From assembly GCA_026415395.1 (NCBI GenBank), contig JAOAHD010000002.1, forward strand, positions 434,001 through 498,000: a stretch of 64,000 nucleotides of DNA, written 5' to 3'. Shown here in pieces: positions 18,652 through 55,446 of the stretch; the stretch's first letter is position 1; each line of letters begins with the position of its first letter. Source of the stretch: Candidatus Binatia bacterium. GTDB taxonomy: Bacteria > Desulfobacterota > Binatia > HRBIN30. The position numbers and the translations under genes are program-made. Below the pieces are notes generated by a model that did no database searches, was not told where the DNA came from, and saw only the letters and a list, made by a program, of their open reading frames with translations.

Positions 18652-21600
18652 ATGGCGGACTCCTTCATTCGCGTTGTCGGTGCGTTTCAAAACAACCTGC
18701 AACACATCGACATCGACATACCTGTGAACGCCCTGACGGTGATTACCGGGCCGTCGGGTTCTGGCAAATCGTCGCTTGCTTTCGATGTGCTTTACGCGGA
18801 AGGCCAGCGCCGCTACGTGGAGACCTTTTCCGCCTACACGCGGCAGTTCTTGGAGCGCATGGACAAGCCCTGCGCCGAGCGCGTGGAAGGGATTTTGCCG
18901 GCAATCGCCATCACCCAAGGCAACACGGTCAAAACCACCCGCTCCACGGTAGGGACCATGACCGAGTTGCACGATCACCTGAAACTCTTCTGGGCTAAGC
19001 TAGCGGTACCCTATTGCCCCGAGTGCGGGGTCTCGATGCAACCGATCACGGCTGACGAGGTGGTGGCCGAAATTTTGAAGAACCCCGATGGCACACGGTT
19101 CCTGGTTGGGTTCGAAACTCCCCTGGCACCCGATTTACCTTGGGAGGAAGCCAGGGCTGGCCTGCAAGCCTCGGGCTTTCATCGGGTGCTGGTAAACGAT
19201 GCCGTGCGTTTGCTCGAAGAGGTAGAGGAGCCAGTGGCTTCTTCACTTTTTGTCATCGTAGACCGCTTGAGCCTGCCTCTGCGCGACAATTCGCGACTGG
19301 CGGATTCGGTGGAGCAGGCGTTTCGCTGGGGCAGGGGGCGCATGTGCGTGGCGTACCTGGAAAATTCGCTCCGCGTGGTTCGCTATTCGAGTGAACGGGA
19401 GTGCCCGCAATGTCAGCGGAAAGTTCGGGAACCGGTGCCCAATTTGTTTTCGTTCAATAGCCCGTTGGGTGCTTGCGAACAGTGCCGCGGGTTTGGGCGG
19501 ATTATCGATGTCGACTTGGACTTGGTCATTCCGAACGACAGCCTGTCGATCGAGGAGGGGGCGATTAAGCCGTGGACGACCAAGTCGACCGAATGGGAGC
19601 GCAGCGAGTTGGAAGCCTTTTGTGTGCGGCGCAAGATTCCCTTGCACCGACCGTGGCGAGAGCTCACCCCCGAGCAGCGCAACTTAGTCATCGAAGGTGA
19701 CGACCAATTCTTCGGCGTCAAAGGCTGGTTCCGTTGGCTCGAGGGACGCACCTACAAGATGCACGTGCGTGTGTTCCTGTCGCGCTACCGCAGTTATCGG
19801 TTGTGTCCAGCGTGTCGCGGCGGTCGACTGAAGCCTGAGGCAACGTGGTATCGCATCGCCGGACGAACCCTCGTGGATGTGCAACGGATGAGCGTAGACG
19901 AGGCGCACGGGTTCTTCGGCTCATTGGAGTTCTCCGGTTCGGGCGACGAAGTGGCGCGGATGGTTCTCCGCGAAATCCAACAGCGGCTGCGTTATCTCCG
20001 CGAGGTCGGATTGGGCTATCTGACCTTGGATCGGCCGTCGCGCACGCTCTCAGGCGGGGAGCTCGCGCGGGTGGACTTGACCACCGCTGTCGGCTCCTCG
20101 CTGGTGAACACCTTGTACATCCTTGACGAACCCTCGGTAGGACTGCATCCGCGCGACAGCCGCCGACTGGTGCAGATTCTGAAGGAGCTGGTGGCCAAGG
20201 AGAATACCGTAGTCGTGGTGGAGCACGACCCGGAGATTATCCGGTCGGCCGACCACGTGATCGACTTGGGGCCGGGTGCAGGCCGGCAGGGCGGACGCGT
20301 TGTGTACACGGGCCCGGTGGCAGGATTGCTGCGCTCGCAGCGCTCGAGCACGGGCGCCTTTCTGGCTGGTCGGCGTTCGATTCCGATTCCCCCCAAACGC
20401 CGGAAGATCTTGCCGGATTTGTCGCTCACCGTGCGCGGGGCTCGAGAGCACAATTTGAAGAACATCACCGTGCGGATTCCCCTTGCACGCTTCGTGTGTG
20501 TCACAGGGGTGTCCGGTTCGGGAAAGTCGACCTTGGTTGAGGACATCTTGTATCGCGCCTTGATGCGGCACTTGGGGAAGTCAGGAGAGCGCCCGGGTGC
20601 GCACGATGGCATCGATGGCGTCGAGCGGATTCGGGCGGTGGTGTTGGTGGATCAAGCGCCGGTGGGGACGACCCCGCGATCCGTGGTGGCCTCGTACGTG
20701 GGGGCCTTCGAAAGCTTTCGGAATCTCTTTGCCGCAACGCCGTTGGCCGCTTTACGCGGTTACGATGCCAGGGCGTTTGCTTTGAGTACCGGCGTCGGTG
20801 CATGCCGCACTTGCAAAGGGGAGGGATTCGAGAAGGTCGAGATGCAGTTCCTGTCCGACGTCTACCTGCCGTGCAGCGAGTGCGGTGGCAAGCGCTTCGT
20901 CCCGGAAGTGCTTGAGATCCAATATCGTGGCAAGAACATCTCTGAGGTCTTACAGCTCACCGCTGCCGAGGCGCTGCAGTTCTTTGCCGACGAGCCCACC
21001 GTGCAAGCGCGGTTGCAACCATTGTGCGATGTCGGTCTCGATTATCTGCCCTTAGGGCAGCCGTTGAACACGCTCTCCGGAGGAGAGGCGCAGCGCCTGA
21101 AGTTGGCCGCCGCCCTTAGTCAACGGAGTGCTCCGCACACGCTGTACATCCTCGATGAACCGACGATCGGATTGCACTTGGGCGACGTGGACCGGCTGTT
21201 GGCAGCGCTGCAGCGCTTGGTGGATGCGGGTCATTCGTTGCTGGTCGTGGAACACAACATGGAGGTCGTGAAGTGTGCTGACTGGGTGATCGACCTCGGG
21301 CCCGCGGGGGGCGAAGCGGGCGGTTACGTGCTTGCGGAAGGTACGCCAGAAGACGTTGCTCGGACCGAGGGTTCACCGACTGCACCTTTTTTGCGGCAGG
21401 CGCTGCAAGGGTTATCCTCCGCGGTTGCGGAGGCACCTTCTTCCTACGCGCTGGTGCGCAAAGAAAGTGCCGCGGTGCCACAGCGGCGCGGACAGATTTG
21501 CGTTGTCGGAGCGCGGGAGCACAACTTGAAAAACATTCACCTCGAGCTGCCCCGCGATCAATGGATCGTCATCACTGGCCTGAGTGGATCGGGAAAGTCG

Positions 21601-53518: not shown

Positions 53519-53794
53519 TTAGAGCAGTAACAAAACCGGAACCGCTGCACTCCCGATCACAACCAAAAGGAAGAGAACCGCGGTTGCCGCGGTCTCCCAG
53601 CGGTTTGGCTCGTCTTGCTGTTTGTCTCCCACGGTCGCCCGCTCTTCGAGAGAAGCAAAGCCAACACGCTGTTCAGCCGGTACGGGCTTTTGCTGCGAGT
53701 GTGTCGCGGCACAGCCGAGCTCAAAGACGAGGAAGCAAGCCAGCAACACGGCGGCGAGCCGCGACGTAAGGATGGAGGCGCGTAAGGGAACCAT
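53519..53794 (-). CDS. Small lipoprotein with C-terminal transmembrane helix
   Basis: 91-residue protein. The N terminus is a signal peptide ending in a lipobox-like FELGCAATH (Cys 28). The short mature part (about 40 residues, Gln/Glu-rich) leads into a hydrophobic C terminus (TAVLFLLVVIGSAAVPVLLLL) ending at the stop. So it may be lipid-anchored at one end and span the membrane at the other, which is unusual. No ribosome binding site is obvious at 53794, and the frame is open further upstream, so the start and even the gene are moderately certain only. Confidence 0.5.
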   Translation of the reverse strand: MVPLRASILTSRLAAVLLACFLVFELGCAATHSQQKPVPAEQRVGFASLEERATVGDKQQDEPNRWETAATAVLFLLVVIGSAAVPVLLLL

Positions 53795-54056
53795 GAGTAA
53801 GCCGGCTATCACAGGCGCGATTCCGGCGCGATGGGAAAATGCTCCCGCCCCTGCCCGCCGCTTACGCTCATGATCTCTGGCAATGTTGCCTGACAAGCGG
53901 AGCGCTTGCAGTGCGCGGCGAGTTGGAACAAGTGAAGGGCTAACTTGCGTTTGCAACTGATGGCTGCAGCACACCAGCAGGGGAAAAAAGGGGGCTAGCG
54001 CGCGGGGTCGGGCCGCGGCCGTGCACAGTCCCCGCCACTGACGAAAGGGGAGATCG

Positions 54057-55115
54057 ATGCCGAGCTGTGCAGCTTGTGGAGGTCGTAGGTGGCTGTATTG
54101 TACGACGTGCCTTGGCACCGGGATGATCCGTTGTCGGAGTTGTCGTGGAGCGGGTGTGAGAAGATGTCGGTGGTGCCGGGGCGAGACGGTTGTCCCTTGC
54201 GGCGAGTGCAGCGGTTACGGATTTGGCTGGGACGGGGAAGAATGCACGAGGTGCTATGGTACGGGCCAACGCCCGTGTAGAGGCTGCCGAGCCGCGGGTG
54301 GTGACGAGGATGATGGAGGCCTTGGGCAATGCCGTAGATGCTGGGGGCGTGGGTTCGTAAGATGCGAAGATTGCCGCGGTTCCACGCATCAACGCTGTGC
54401 AGATTGCCGAGGAACGAGGTGGAGTGAAGAGGCTCCGAGGCCGACTTCCTCTCGCGACGCCAATCCCTCCGAACAGGCTAACGCGGATTGGGAAGACGAA
54501 GAACCAGGGGAAGAGGATTGGGAAGAGGAGGAGTCGGAAGGGGAAGATTGGGACGAGGAAGAAGAGTGGGAGGAAGAAGAGGAGTGGGAGGAAGAGGAAG
54601 ATTGGGAGCAGGGGGAAGACTCGGAAGATGGGGAAGACGAGGCGGGTAGTACGCGCAGCGGGGAAGAGCAGGAGAGGGCGTCGAGCGCCGTTCCTGAAGA
54701 TGAAACGCGTGACGAAGGCCCGCTGCTCGATGGTGACGAAGAGTGCGCCACGGAAGCGAGCAACCAAGGTGCTGCCGCTGGCGCGGCCGACGACCTCTTC
54801 GAATACAAACCGCGCATGCAGGGTTTTTGGCCGGTTGGCGACGATGCTGGGAAACGGGAAGAGGACGACGAGTGGGATGACGCCCCCGAGCCGTCGAAGG
54901 ATCAGACGCCCCCACCGGGCCCCGAGGCTTGCGGACATTGTGAACCGCGGTTGCGGAAGTTTCTCCTCAGTGGACCAGGACAAGAACCGGCAGACTGTCC
55001 ACGGTGTCGAATGGCTCCCGAAGCCTCACGGGACGGAGGCGACGCAGAGGCGCGGGGAGAGTGCGAAGAAACAGAAACTATAGCCCAGTGCGAGAAGGAC
55101 ACCGGCAGAGGTTAG
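54057..55115 (+). CDS. CxxC-array protein with Trp/Glu acidic domain
   Basis: 352-residue cytoplasmic protein of unknown function. Residues 4-118 contain ten CxxC pairs, several in DnaJ-type CxxCxGxG form (CLGTG, CRGAG, CSGYG, CYGTG), suggesting several zinc-binding hairpins. Residues about 144-195 are almost only Glu, Asp and Trp, with Trp recurring every 6-10 residues (W145, 155, 165, 171, 177, 183). Two further CxxC pairs (CGHC, CPRC) lie near the C terminus. A strong AAAGGGGAG precedes the ATG. It could be an RNA/protein-binding or metal-buffering protein or a DnaJ-finger chaperone without the J domain; none is proved. Confidence 0.75.
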   Translation: MPSCAACGGRRWLYCTTCLGTGMIRCRSCRGAGVRRCRWCRGETVVPCGECSGYGFGWDGEECTRCYGTGQRPCRGCRAAGGDEDDGGLGQCRRCWGRGFVRCEDCRGSTHQRCADCRGTRWSEEAPRPTSSRDANPSEQANADWEDEEPGEEDWEEEESEGEDWDEEEEWEEEEEWEEEEDWEQGEDSEDGEDEAGSTRSGEEQERASSAVPEDETRDEGPLLDGDEECATEASNQGAAAGAADDLFEYKPRMQGFWPVGDDAGKREEDDEWDDAPEPSKDQTPPPGPEACGHCEPRLRKFLLSGPGQEPADCPRCRMAPEASRDGGDAEARGECEETETIAQCEKDTGRG

Positions 55116-55373
55116 AGCTACTGAGTGAGCCTCGCTCGCCTTGGCAGTACGCTCTCCACGGCGGCACATCCGGGGGCGCCGGTGCCTGGCCCGCCTGACC
55201 ACCCGCACCCGCCGATCATGCCTAGCTCGTCTCGGGATGACGATGAAAAGATTAAACGTGCCTAGCTCGTCGCTGCACTCCTCGCTGTCGGCAACAATGC
55301 GAAGCCGGAGTGCAGAGAAGTCCCGTGAGGTCGTGCAAGGCAAGCCGGTAGCTCGCTAACGGTGAACGAAGAG
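55116..55373. other. Intergenic region with a short direct repeat
   Basis: About 260 bases between the CxxC protein and tRNA-Ala. The 13-base sequence TGCCTAGCTCGTC occurs at 55219-55231 and again at 55259-55271, 40 bases apart. No gene is supported. The repeat could be part of an interspersed intergenic element, which a genome-wide search would show. Confidence 0.45.
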
Positions 55374-55446
55374 TGGAGCTGAGCGGAGTCGAACCGCCGA
55401 CCTCCTGAATGCCATTCAGGCGCTCTCCCAACTGAGCTACAGCCCC
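55374..55446 (-). tRNA. tRNA-Ala (anticodon GGC)
   Basis: Reading the minus strand from 55446 gives an acceptor 5' strand GGGGCTG, D-arm TAGCTCAGTTGGGAGAGC, anticodon stem CCTGA/TCAGG with loop ATGGCAT (anticodon GGC), a five-base variable loop and a TTCGACT-type T loop within CGGCGG...CTCCGC, then CAGCTCC and discriminator A. The acceptor stem pairs with one G-T. The CCA is not encoded (next bases CTC). Length is 73 bases. GGC reads the GCC and GCU codons of alanine. The fold is complete. Confidence 0.97.

Follow-up and report, generated by a model that had tools for sequence, protein, structure and literature searches.

The window, a stretch of 64,000 nucleotides included in a genome assembly of 3.69 Mb (G000), was found to contain a gene for a protein of 352 amino acids on the forward strand (54057..55115). 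The open reading frame has a syntenic sister gene under protein-level constraint, and a Shine-Dalgarno-like AAAGGGGAG (54044..54052, +) was found ahead of the ATG, with purine-rich counterparts ahead of the ATG in both sister loci. The protein was found to begin with an array of ten CxxC pairs (residues 4-117; 54066..54407, +), followed by a Trp-punctuated acidic tract, the core of which (residues 144-183; 54486..54605, +) was recognised by its composition and has counterparts in two sister genomes. Two extra CxxC pairs were present near the C-terminus (residues 292-317; 54930..55007, +). The first CxxC pair lies at residue 4 and leaves no space for a signal peptide, so the protein may be cytoplasmic.

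The upstream neighbour was found to be mgtC (PF02308; 52794..53486, +), which adjoins the CxxC gene in each of the three genus members, namely G000, the sister species HRbin30 (G002) and a third species (G001). A divergent ORF of 91 amino acids (53519..53794, -) contained a C-terminal hydrophobic segment and appeared lipoprotein-like by eye; it matched no Pfam family and was present in 3 of the 12 genomes searched, which are the three of the genus. The downstream neighbour was tRNA-Ala(GGC) (55373..55446, -), found downstream in G001 too, and the contig of G002 stops short of the site. No promoter or terminator exceeding chance was found. Genomes recovered from thermal springs are included in an order HRBin30, described within the phylum Binatota (PMC8262859), to which the window presumably belongs, going by the name and the same-genus label.

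Conservation of the gene in the genus

The sister species was found to encode a syntenic protein, P0002, beside mgtC, with 42% identity over 114 residues of the array. The two proteins share every one of the 20 array cysteines, together with 15 glycines, and 11 of the 20 cysteine codons differed between them although every cysteine was retained. Nearly all CxxC pairs kept their spacing. Over the 114 codons, pS was 0.82 and pN was 0.40, and this contrast was absent from the two shifted frames (pS/pN of 0.42/0.53 and 0.49/0.48). The window array matched P0002 with 86.7 bits, whereas two shuffles that kept the cysteines and glycines in place (2 of the 14 made) scored 48.1 and 36.6 bits; the residues between the cysteines are therefore also kept. 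Because of the syntenic sister, the excess of pS over pN and the sister score above those of the shuffles, 54057-55115 is a real gene under protein-level constraint. The 20 array cysteines are under constraint, and a tail of acidic residues with separated Trp accompanies the array in 3/3 genomes.

The contig that carries the P0002 gene is 45,243 bases long and the ORF leaves its end, so that the comparison is one of two intact sequences, one of them cut. The ten-pair array, the shared spacing, the acidic Trp tail and the adjoining mgtC were all found in G000 and G002. In G001, a recognisable broken copy was found between mgtC and tRNA-Ala (L009 8287-8794), with two single-base gaps relative to the other two genomes; by eye, a stop precedes the tenth pair and Trp replaces the first cysteine of the ninth. 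This copy is either truly broken or badly assembled and, since the gene is broken in one of the three species, either its job is dispensable or the assembly is faulty.

The CxxC array

The CxxC pairs of the window protein were found to start at residues 4, 15, 26, 37, 48, 63, 74, 92, 103 and 114, with successive starts spaced by 11, 11, 11, 11, 15, 11, 18, 11 and 11 residues, seven of the nine distances being 11. The original prediction of ten pairs was confirmed, and its coordinates for the ORF were exact. When residues 1-119 were shuffled 100,000 times, two of the shuffles contained at least ten CxxC pairs. The two pairs beyond the array, at residues 292 and 314, had escaped the original prediction; no CxxC was found after the acidic stretch of the broken G001 copy, and the sister ORF leaves its contig before the comparable region. 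The charge of the array was not kept, with K+R/D+E of 20/12 in the window protein and 12/13 in the sister. Since the positive charge is not retained, the case for an array that binds nucleic acid is weaker and binding to protein is favoured.

Resemblance to known families

No Pfam or NCBIfam family was found to assign the 352-residue protein (Pfam E 1e-3), and no J domain or C-terminal substrate domain was found in the ORF by Pfam at the same threshold. When the array was searched alone against Pfam, sub-threshold scores were obtained for GRXCR1-2_C (PF23733; 22.2 bits, cut-off 26, with 20.8 bits for the sister), BSD2_CRD (PF25436; 21.1 bits, and 15.6 bits with the whole protein, cut-off 27) and DnaJ_CXXCXGXG (PF00684; 15.7 bits, cut-off 32.7). 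The best match in the PDB was BSD2 (6ekb), with E 4.8e-5 for a two-sequence profile and 0.0021 for the single array.

None of four shuffles that kept only the cysteines matched BSD2, DnaJ or GRXCR1/2. With both cysteines and glycines kept, 14/14 shuffles matched BSD2 (11.1-27.8 bits, three equalling or exceeding the real array and one passing the cut-off), 13/14 matched DnaJ (7.3-14.7 bits, none reaching the real 15.7) and 4/14 matched GRXCR1/2 (one as high as the real array, at 22.7 bits). The real array outscored 11 of the 14 shuffles for BSD2, all 14 for DnaJ, with a margin of one bit, and all but one for GRXCR1/2. The likeness to BSD2 and DnaJ is therefore mostly one of shared knuckle layout, as it survives in shuffles that keep Cys and Gly and disappears in those that keep Cys alone. 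Kinship to the BSD2 and DnaJ fingers was not accepted, the scores being below cut-off and the Cys- and Gly-keeping shuffles matching too. A slight surplus towards DnaJ persists in the scores and does not establish descent. The original description of the array as partly DnaJ-finger-like accordingly holds for its layout and for this slight edge, and fails as a family assignment, with a score below the cut-off of 32.7 bits and matches from 13 of the 14 shuffles.

The DnaJ finger resembles the array in its CxxC pairs followed by GxG and differs from it in its distances; the DnaJ finger of G000 itself contained four pairs at distances of 17, 22 and 14, against mostly 11 in the array, and gave a marginal array match (E 0.004 in a single comparison). 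With this different spacing and marginal match, no sign was found of an ordinary DnaJ that had lost its J domain. The C-terminal domain of GRXCR1/2 shares the tandem CxxC pairs, and no glutaredoxin domain was detected in the window ORF. Anti-TRAP (AT) of Bacillus is a small DnaJ-finger-like zinc protein that acts by binding another protein; by description it is set apart from the window protein, being much shorter and having neither a ten-pair array nor an acidic tail. BSD2 and ZnJ2, like the window array, carry tandem CxxCxGxG knuckles without a J domain, and we know of no acidic Trp tail in either. They are unlike the window protein as chloroplast proteins. ZnJ2 differs also in having four pairs instead of ten (PMC5818400).

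Matches to ribosomal protein S29/uS14 (E 0.0036-0.1) were attributed to the cysteine layout and regarded as noise. A weak match was found to phrog_28723, a family of unknown function (E 9.5e-5 with the array alone, 0.054 with the whole protein). The arrays of two huge-phage records (LR745206.1 and LR756502.1) contained, as the window array does, CxxC-Gly pairs mostly 11 residues apart, and that of LR745206.1 showed 36% identity to the window array over 117 residues. Kinship was not accepted, since the match of 70.5 bits compares with 73.6 and 67.4 bits for two Cys- and Gly-keeping shuffles. The phage ORFs (L073 1942-3351 in LR745206.1, 469 residues; L074 1825-3357 in LR756502.1, 510 residues) contained ten and nine C-terminal CxxC pairs, respectively, as counted by eye, and their N-terminal parts gave no Pfam match (E 0.1). 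A similar array was present in a third huge-phage record, LR756504.1. A plasmid of Halobaculum roseum (L075 2680-5118) was found to encode a hypothetical protein of 812 residues (WP_222923734.1) in which hydrophobic segments come after a long CxxC array. The two phage ORFs and the one Halobaculum protein examined differ from the window protein in the sequence around the array and contain no Trp-acidic tail.

The acidic Trp tail

The densest 40 residues of the tail (residues 144-183) contained 24 E, 6 D and 6 W, which is 36 of 40, and neither K nor R, so that the tract proved to be composed almost wholly of Glu, Asp and Trp as had been predicted. The Trp gaps of 10, 10, 6, 6 and 6 likewise agree with the predicted Trp at every 6-10 positions. 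The whole protein was found to carry a net charge of -55 and 13 Trp. With tight borders, the evenness of the Trp in the window tract gave P 0.0013 for the smallest gap and 0.08 for the spread, and with wider borders 0.035 and 0.018, respectively; the sister tract gave 0.02 and 0.23, and with other borders 0.11 and 0.06. Trp spacing in the single window tract thus departs only weakly from chance in its evenness. Beneath the acidic tract, imperfect tandem DNA units of 9-24 bp were found (for example, 18 bp in 5.7 copies with 77% matches), and because of them the even spacing could stem from slippage.

The tail was acidic with separated Trp in 3/3 genomes of the genus and contained little alignable order. 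The exact gaps, the conservation of which had been proposed as a check, were not kept, being 8, 4, 10, 4 and 7 in the sister and 11 and 18 in G001, which has three Trp. When six tracts of the genus were pooled, no Trp-Trp gap below 4 was found against 5.9 expected (20,000 placements, P 0.0004), in a test in which the tracts are related, the borders were set by eye and the N-terminal WW of the small proteins described below was excluded before counting. The two tracts of G000 alone gave P 0.027.

A repeated W-(D/E) DNA pattern matched 3 of 8 near genomes, which are the three of the genus; two loci each were found in G000 and G002 (the CxxC gene and a second locus), and the second locus alone in G001. 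Reversal of this pattern, as a control, left a single match, in G000. A Trp-acidic DNA pattern matched 16 of 148 genomes of the class, including the three of the genus and G012, and its reversed form, used as a control, gave one match, in G000. The sorting of these 16 covered the genomes other than G108 and the other seven of g28. In G126 and G139 the match was found to be the C-terminal end of an ORF which we take to be UbiD-like, and no acidic ORF was found at the matches in G085 and G008. The tail alone matched no plasmid with the low-complexity filter on.

An acidic small ORF upstream of dtd

A stand-alone acidic ORF, MDELWWAKRREEEEEDWEEEEDEDWDEEEDWDEEDWDEEDWDDEEEEEDEY, was found in G000 just upstream of dtd (G000:C7, about 268.79-268.95 kb; L032 5792-5947). 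Close counterparts were present in G001 and G002, and all three end 12 bases before dtd. The small proteins of the genus contained 51-55 residues and were Trp-punctuated and acidic. The dtd gene was present in 20/20 genomes searched. Of 15 genomes of the order inspected by eye, 11 (G000-G008, G010 and G012) carry a small acidic ORF directly upstream of dtd on the same strand; none was seen in G009, G011, G013 and G014, nor in five genomes of the class from other orders (G021, G022, G031, G117 and G126). The small ORF ends 12-18 bases before dtd in nine genomes and 51 bases before it in G012, and the frame of G007 enters dtd. Ten of the small ORFs, G007 being excluded, were aligned and found to share a start of about M-D/E-x-x-L/W-x-x-K/R-R-R-E-E. 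No Pfam family was found for the two that were searched.

A Shine-Dalgarno-like stretch was present before the small ORF in all ten genomes read (G002 excluded), and none was seen before dtd, equally in four genomes without the small ORF. Since dtd has no such stretch also where the small ORF is absent, a coupling of the two is a suggestion only. DTD (D-aminoacyl-tRNA deacylase) acts on D-Asp-, D-Trp- and D-Tyr-tRNA. In a bolder form of the suggestion, the upstream frame, which contains Asp, Trp and Tyr, might sense D-aminoacyl-tRNA by stalling, coupled to the translation of dtd. This acidic small ORF, present across the order next to dtd, offers a lead of its own that can be tested.

Distribution

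A search with the single array matched 1 of 57 relatives besides G000 (E <= 0.001), and a two-sequence profile matched 2 of 148 class genomes, G000 and G002 (E <= 1e-6). The broken copy of G001 was found by synteny and by neither of these searches, so that decayed copies elsewhere would escape them. In a profile search of the phylum, 6 of 395 genomes matched at E <= 1e-4, G000 included; among the five others, two matches were short DnaJ-finger-like ORFs (69 and 121 amino acids, with four and six CxxC pairs, respectively) without an acidic tail, the matches examined being those other than L070-L072. Of two scans of genome contigs, the first gave no match and the second matched HRbin30 only (BEIG01000015.1, the same gene in the same place). 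No relative was found among viral contigs; similar arrays were found in three Halobaculum records by the plasmid search and in three huge-phage records by the phage search.

As far as these searches reach, the CxxC-array and acidic-Trp protein appears restricted to its genus. The combination of a CxxC array with an acidic Trp tail was not found in the literature searched. The original statement that no family is known with this pairing is borne out by the Pfam and NCBIfam libraries, and in each genome of the genus the two parts accompany one another. The acidic tract is present in both relatives, so that the first of the proposed refutations did not occur.

Possible function

The protein is tentatively read as a genus-restricted cytoplasmic adaptor, or an assembly or holding factor, built of a zinc-based scaffold and a disordered acidic-aromatic binding arm, and a probability of about 0.35 is given to this reading. 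Neighbouring CxxC pairs would enclose zinc and form small knuckles strung into a rigid chain, and this chain may serve as a protein-binding scaffold that works, by analogy, like the J-free DnaJ-type fingers of BSD2, ZnJ2 and anti-TRAP. The tail would be disordered, its acidic charge presumably holding the separated Trp exposed as in the acidic exposure model, and it may grip a basic and hydrophobic partner through many weak contacts. Zinc, disorder, location, partner and function are all inferred. For ZnJ2, a J-free DnaJ-finger protein, a holding-chaperone activity that does not act via DnaK is reported in PMC5818400.

The acidic exposure model, in which hydrophobic residues are left available to partners by the acidic ones, is set out for eukaryotic activation domains in PMC10550315. 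Such domains are like the tail in the spread of aromatics through a strongly acidic stretch and unlike it in serving eukaryotic transcription. The formula given there (a 39-residue tile with charge <= -9, W+F+Y+L >= 7 and a balance term) selected none of the 314 tiles of the window protein and 35 of the 304 tiles of the sister, the best acidic tile of the window protein containing 6 W/F/Y/L. AlphaFold models made with two-sequence alignments gave mean pLDDT of 40.7 and 34.7. No partner, operon mate or structure was found to back the adaptor reading, and mgtC, the lipoprotein-like ORF and tRNA-Ala indicate no client. The broken copy of G001 also counts against it, as do the tandem DNA units, which may partly explain the evenness of the Trp.

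The adaptor or assembly role is preferred over four other explanations. A metallothionein-like store, in which the paired cysteines bind zinc or the soft metals of hot-spring water, is considered rather unlikely, together with its corollary that the acidic tail serves to bind divalent ions or to keep the protein in solution. The density of 20 cysteines in 119 residues (20-24 paired overall), the net charge of -55, the cysteines as the best-kept residues and the mgtC neighbour in 3/3 genomes all agree with a store, and loss in one species fits a condition-dependent role. However, the residues between the cysteines are kept beyond the Cys/Gly layout and so is the spacing of the pairs, and a mere sink needs neither; nor has a buffer any need of separated Trp. 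Metallothioneins are short, Cys-rich proteins with few or no aromatics, a definition outside which the window protein falls with its 352 residues and 13 Trp. In another view the gene is a young, genus-restricted orphan of slight effect that grew as Cys-Gly and Glu/Asp-Trp units were repeated in tandem, drifts and has been lost in one lineage. The restriction of matches to two genomes of the genus among 148 of the class, the broken G001 copy and the tandem DNA units in the tail would suit such an origin, but pN of 0.40 against pS of 0.82 and the retention of 20/20 array cysteines do not, and this explanation is also held to be somewhat improbable.

The extreme negative charge could instead mark a mimic of nucleic acid or of the ribosome, in which the acidic Trp tract imitates RNA or DNA on a basic surface and the array dimerises or anchors the protein; as parts of this doubtful proposal, the surface might be that of a nucleoid protein, a ribosomal protein or a nuclease. 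A second Trp-acidic protein of the genus, encoded directly upstream of the translation-quality gene dtd, speaks for a target of this kind, and against it there is no direct evidence of a target and nothing that ties both acidic tracts to one. A combined version, in which a single Trp-acidic arm is used twice, in the CxxC tail and in the protein upstream of dtd, and binds the same basic partner, probably in the translation apparatus, would make the window protein a novel zinc-dependent adaptor of translation or ribosome assembly, and is regarded as a long shot. Least credence is given to a thiol-disulfide or redox switch, in which disulfides are exchanged by the CxxC pairs, a role suggested also for DnaJ fingers, while the tail brings in substrates. 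CxxC pairs are found throughout the protein, as a switch would have them, but no thioredoxin-like or other known domain was found by Pfam or NCBIfam, and the array pairs, with Gly after CxxC and a spacing mostly of 11, have the look of metal knuckles.

The gene is of interest as one for a conserved protein left blank by the family libraries searched, in which an unusually long metal-knuckle-like array is joined to an acidic-aromatic arm. This combination is familiar mainly from eukaryotic regulators. If the arm binds a defined partner, bacteria would also use acid-exposed aromatic arms for loose recruitment through many points. The shuffles call for caution in annotation, since in a Cys-rich protein much of the BSD2 or DnaJ-finger score can come from layout alone; one shuffle passed the BSD2 cut-off.

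Elsewhere in the window, at 20797-20895 (+; G000:C2:454797-454895), a sub-threshold DnaJ CxxCxGxG match (21.5 bits, cut-off 32.7) was found inside an open frame of 1864 residues.
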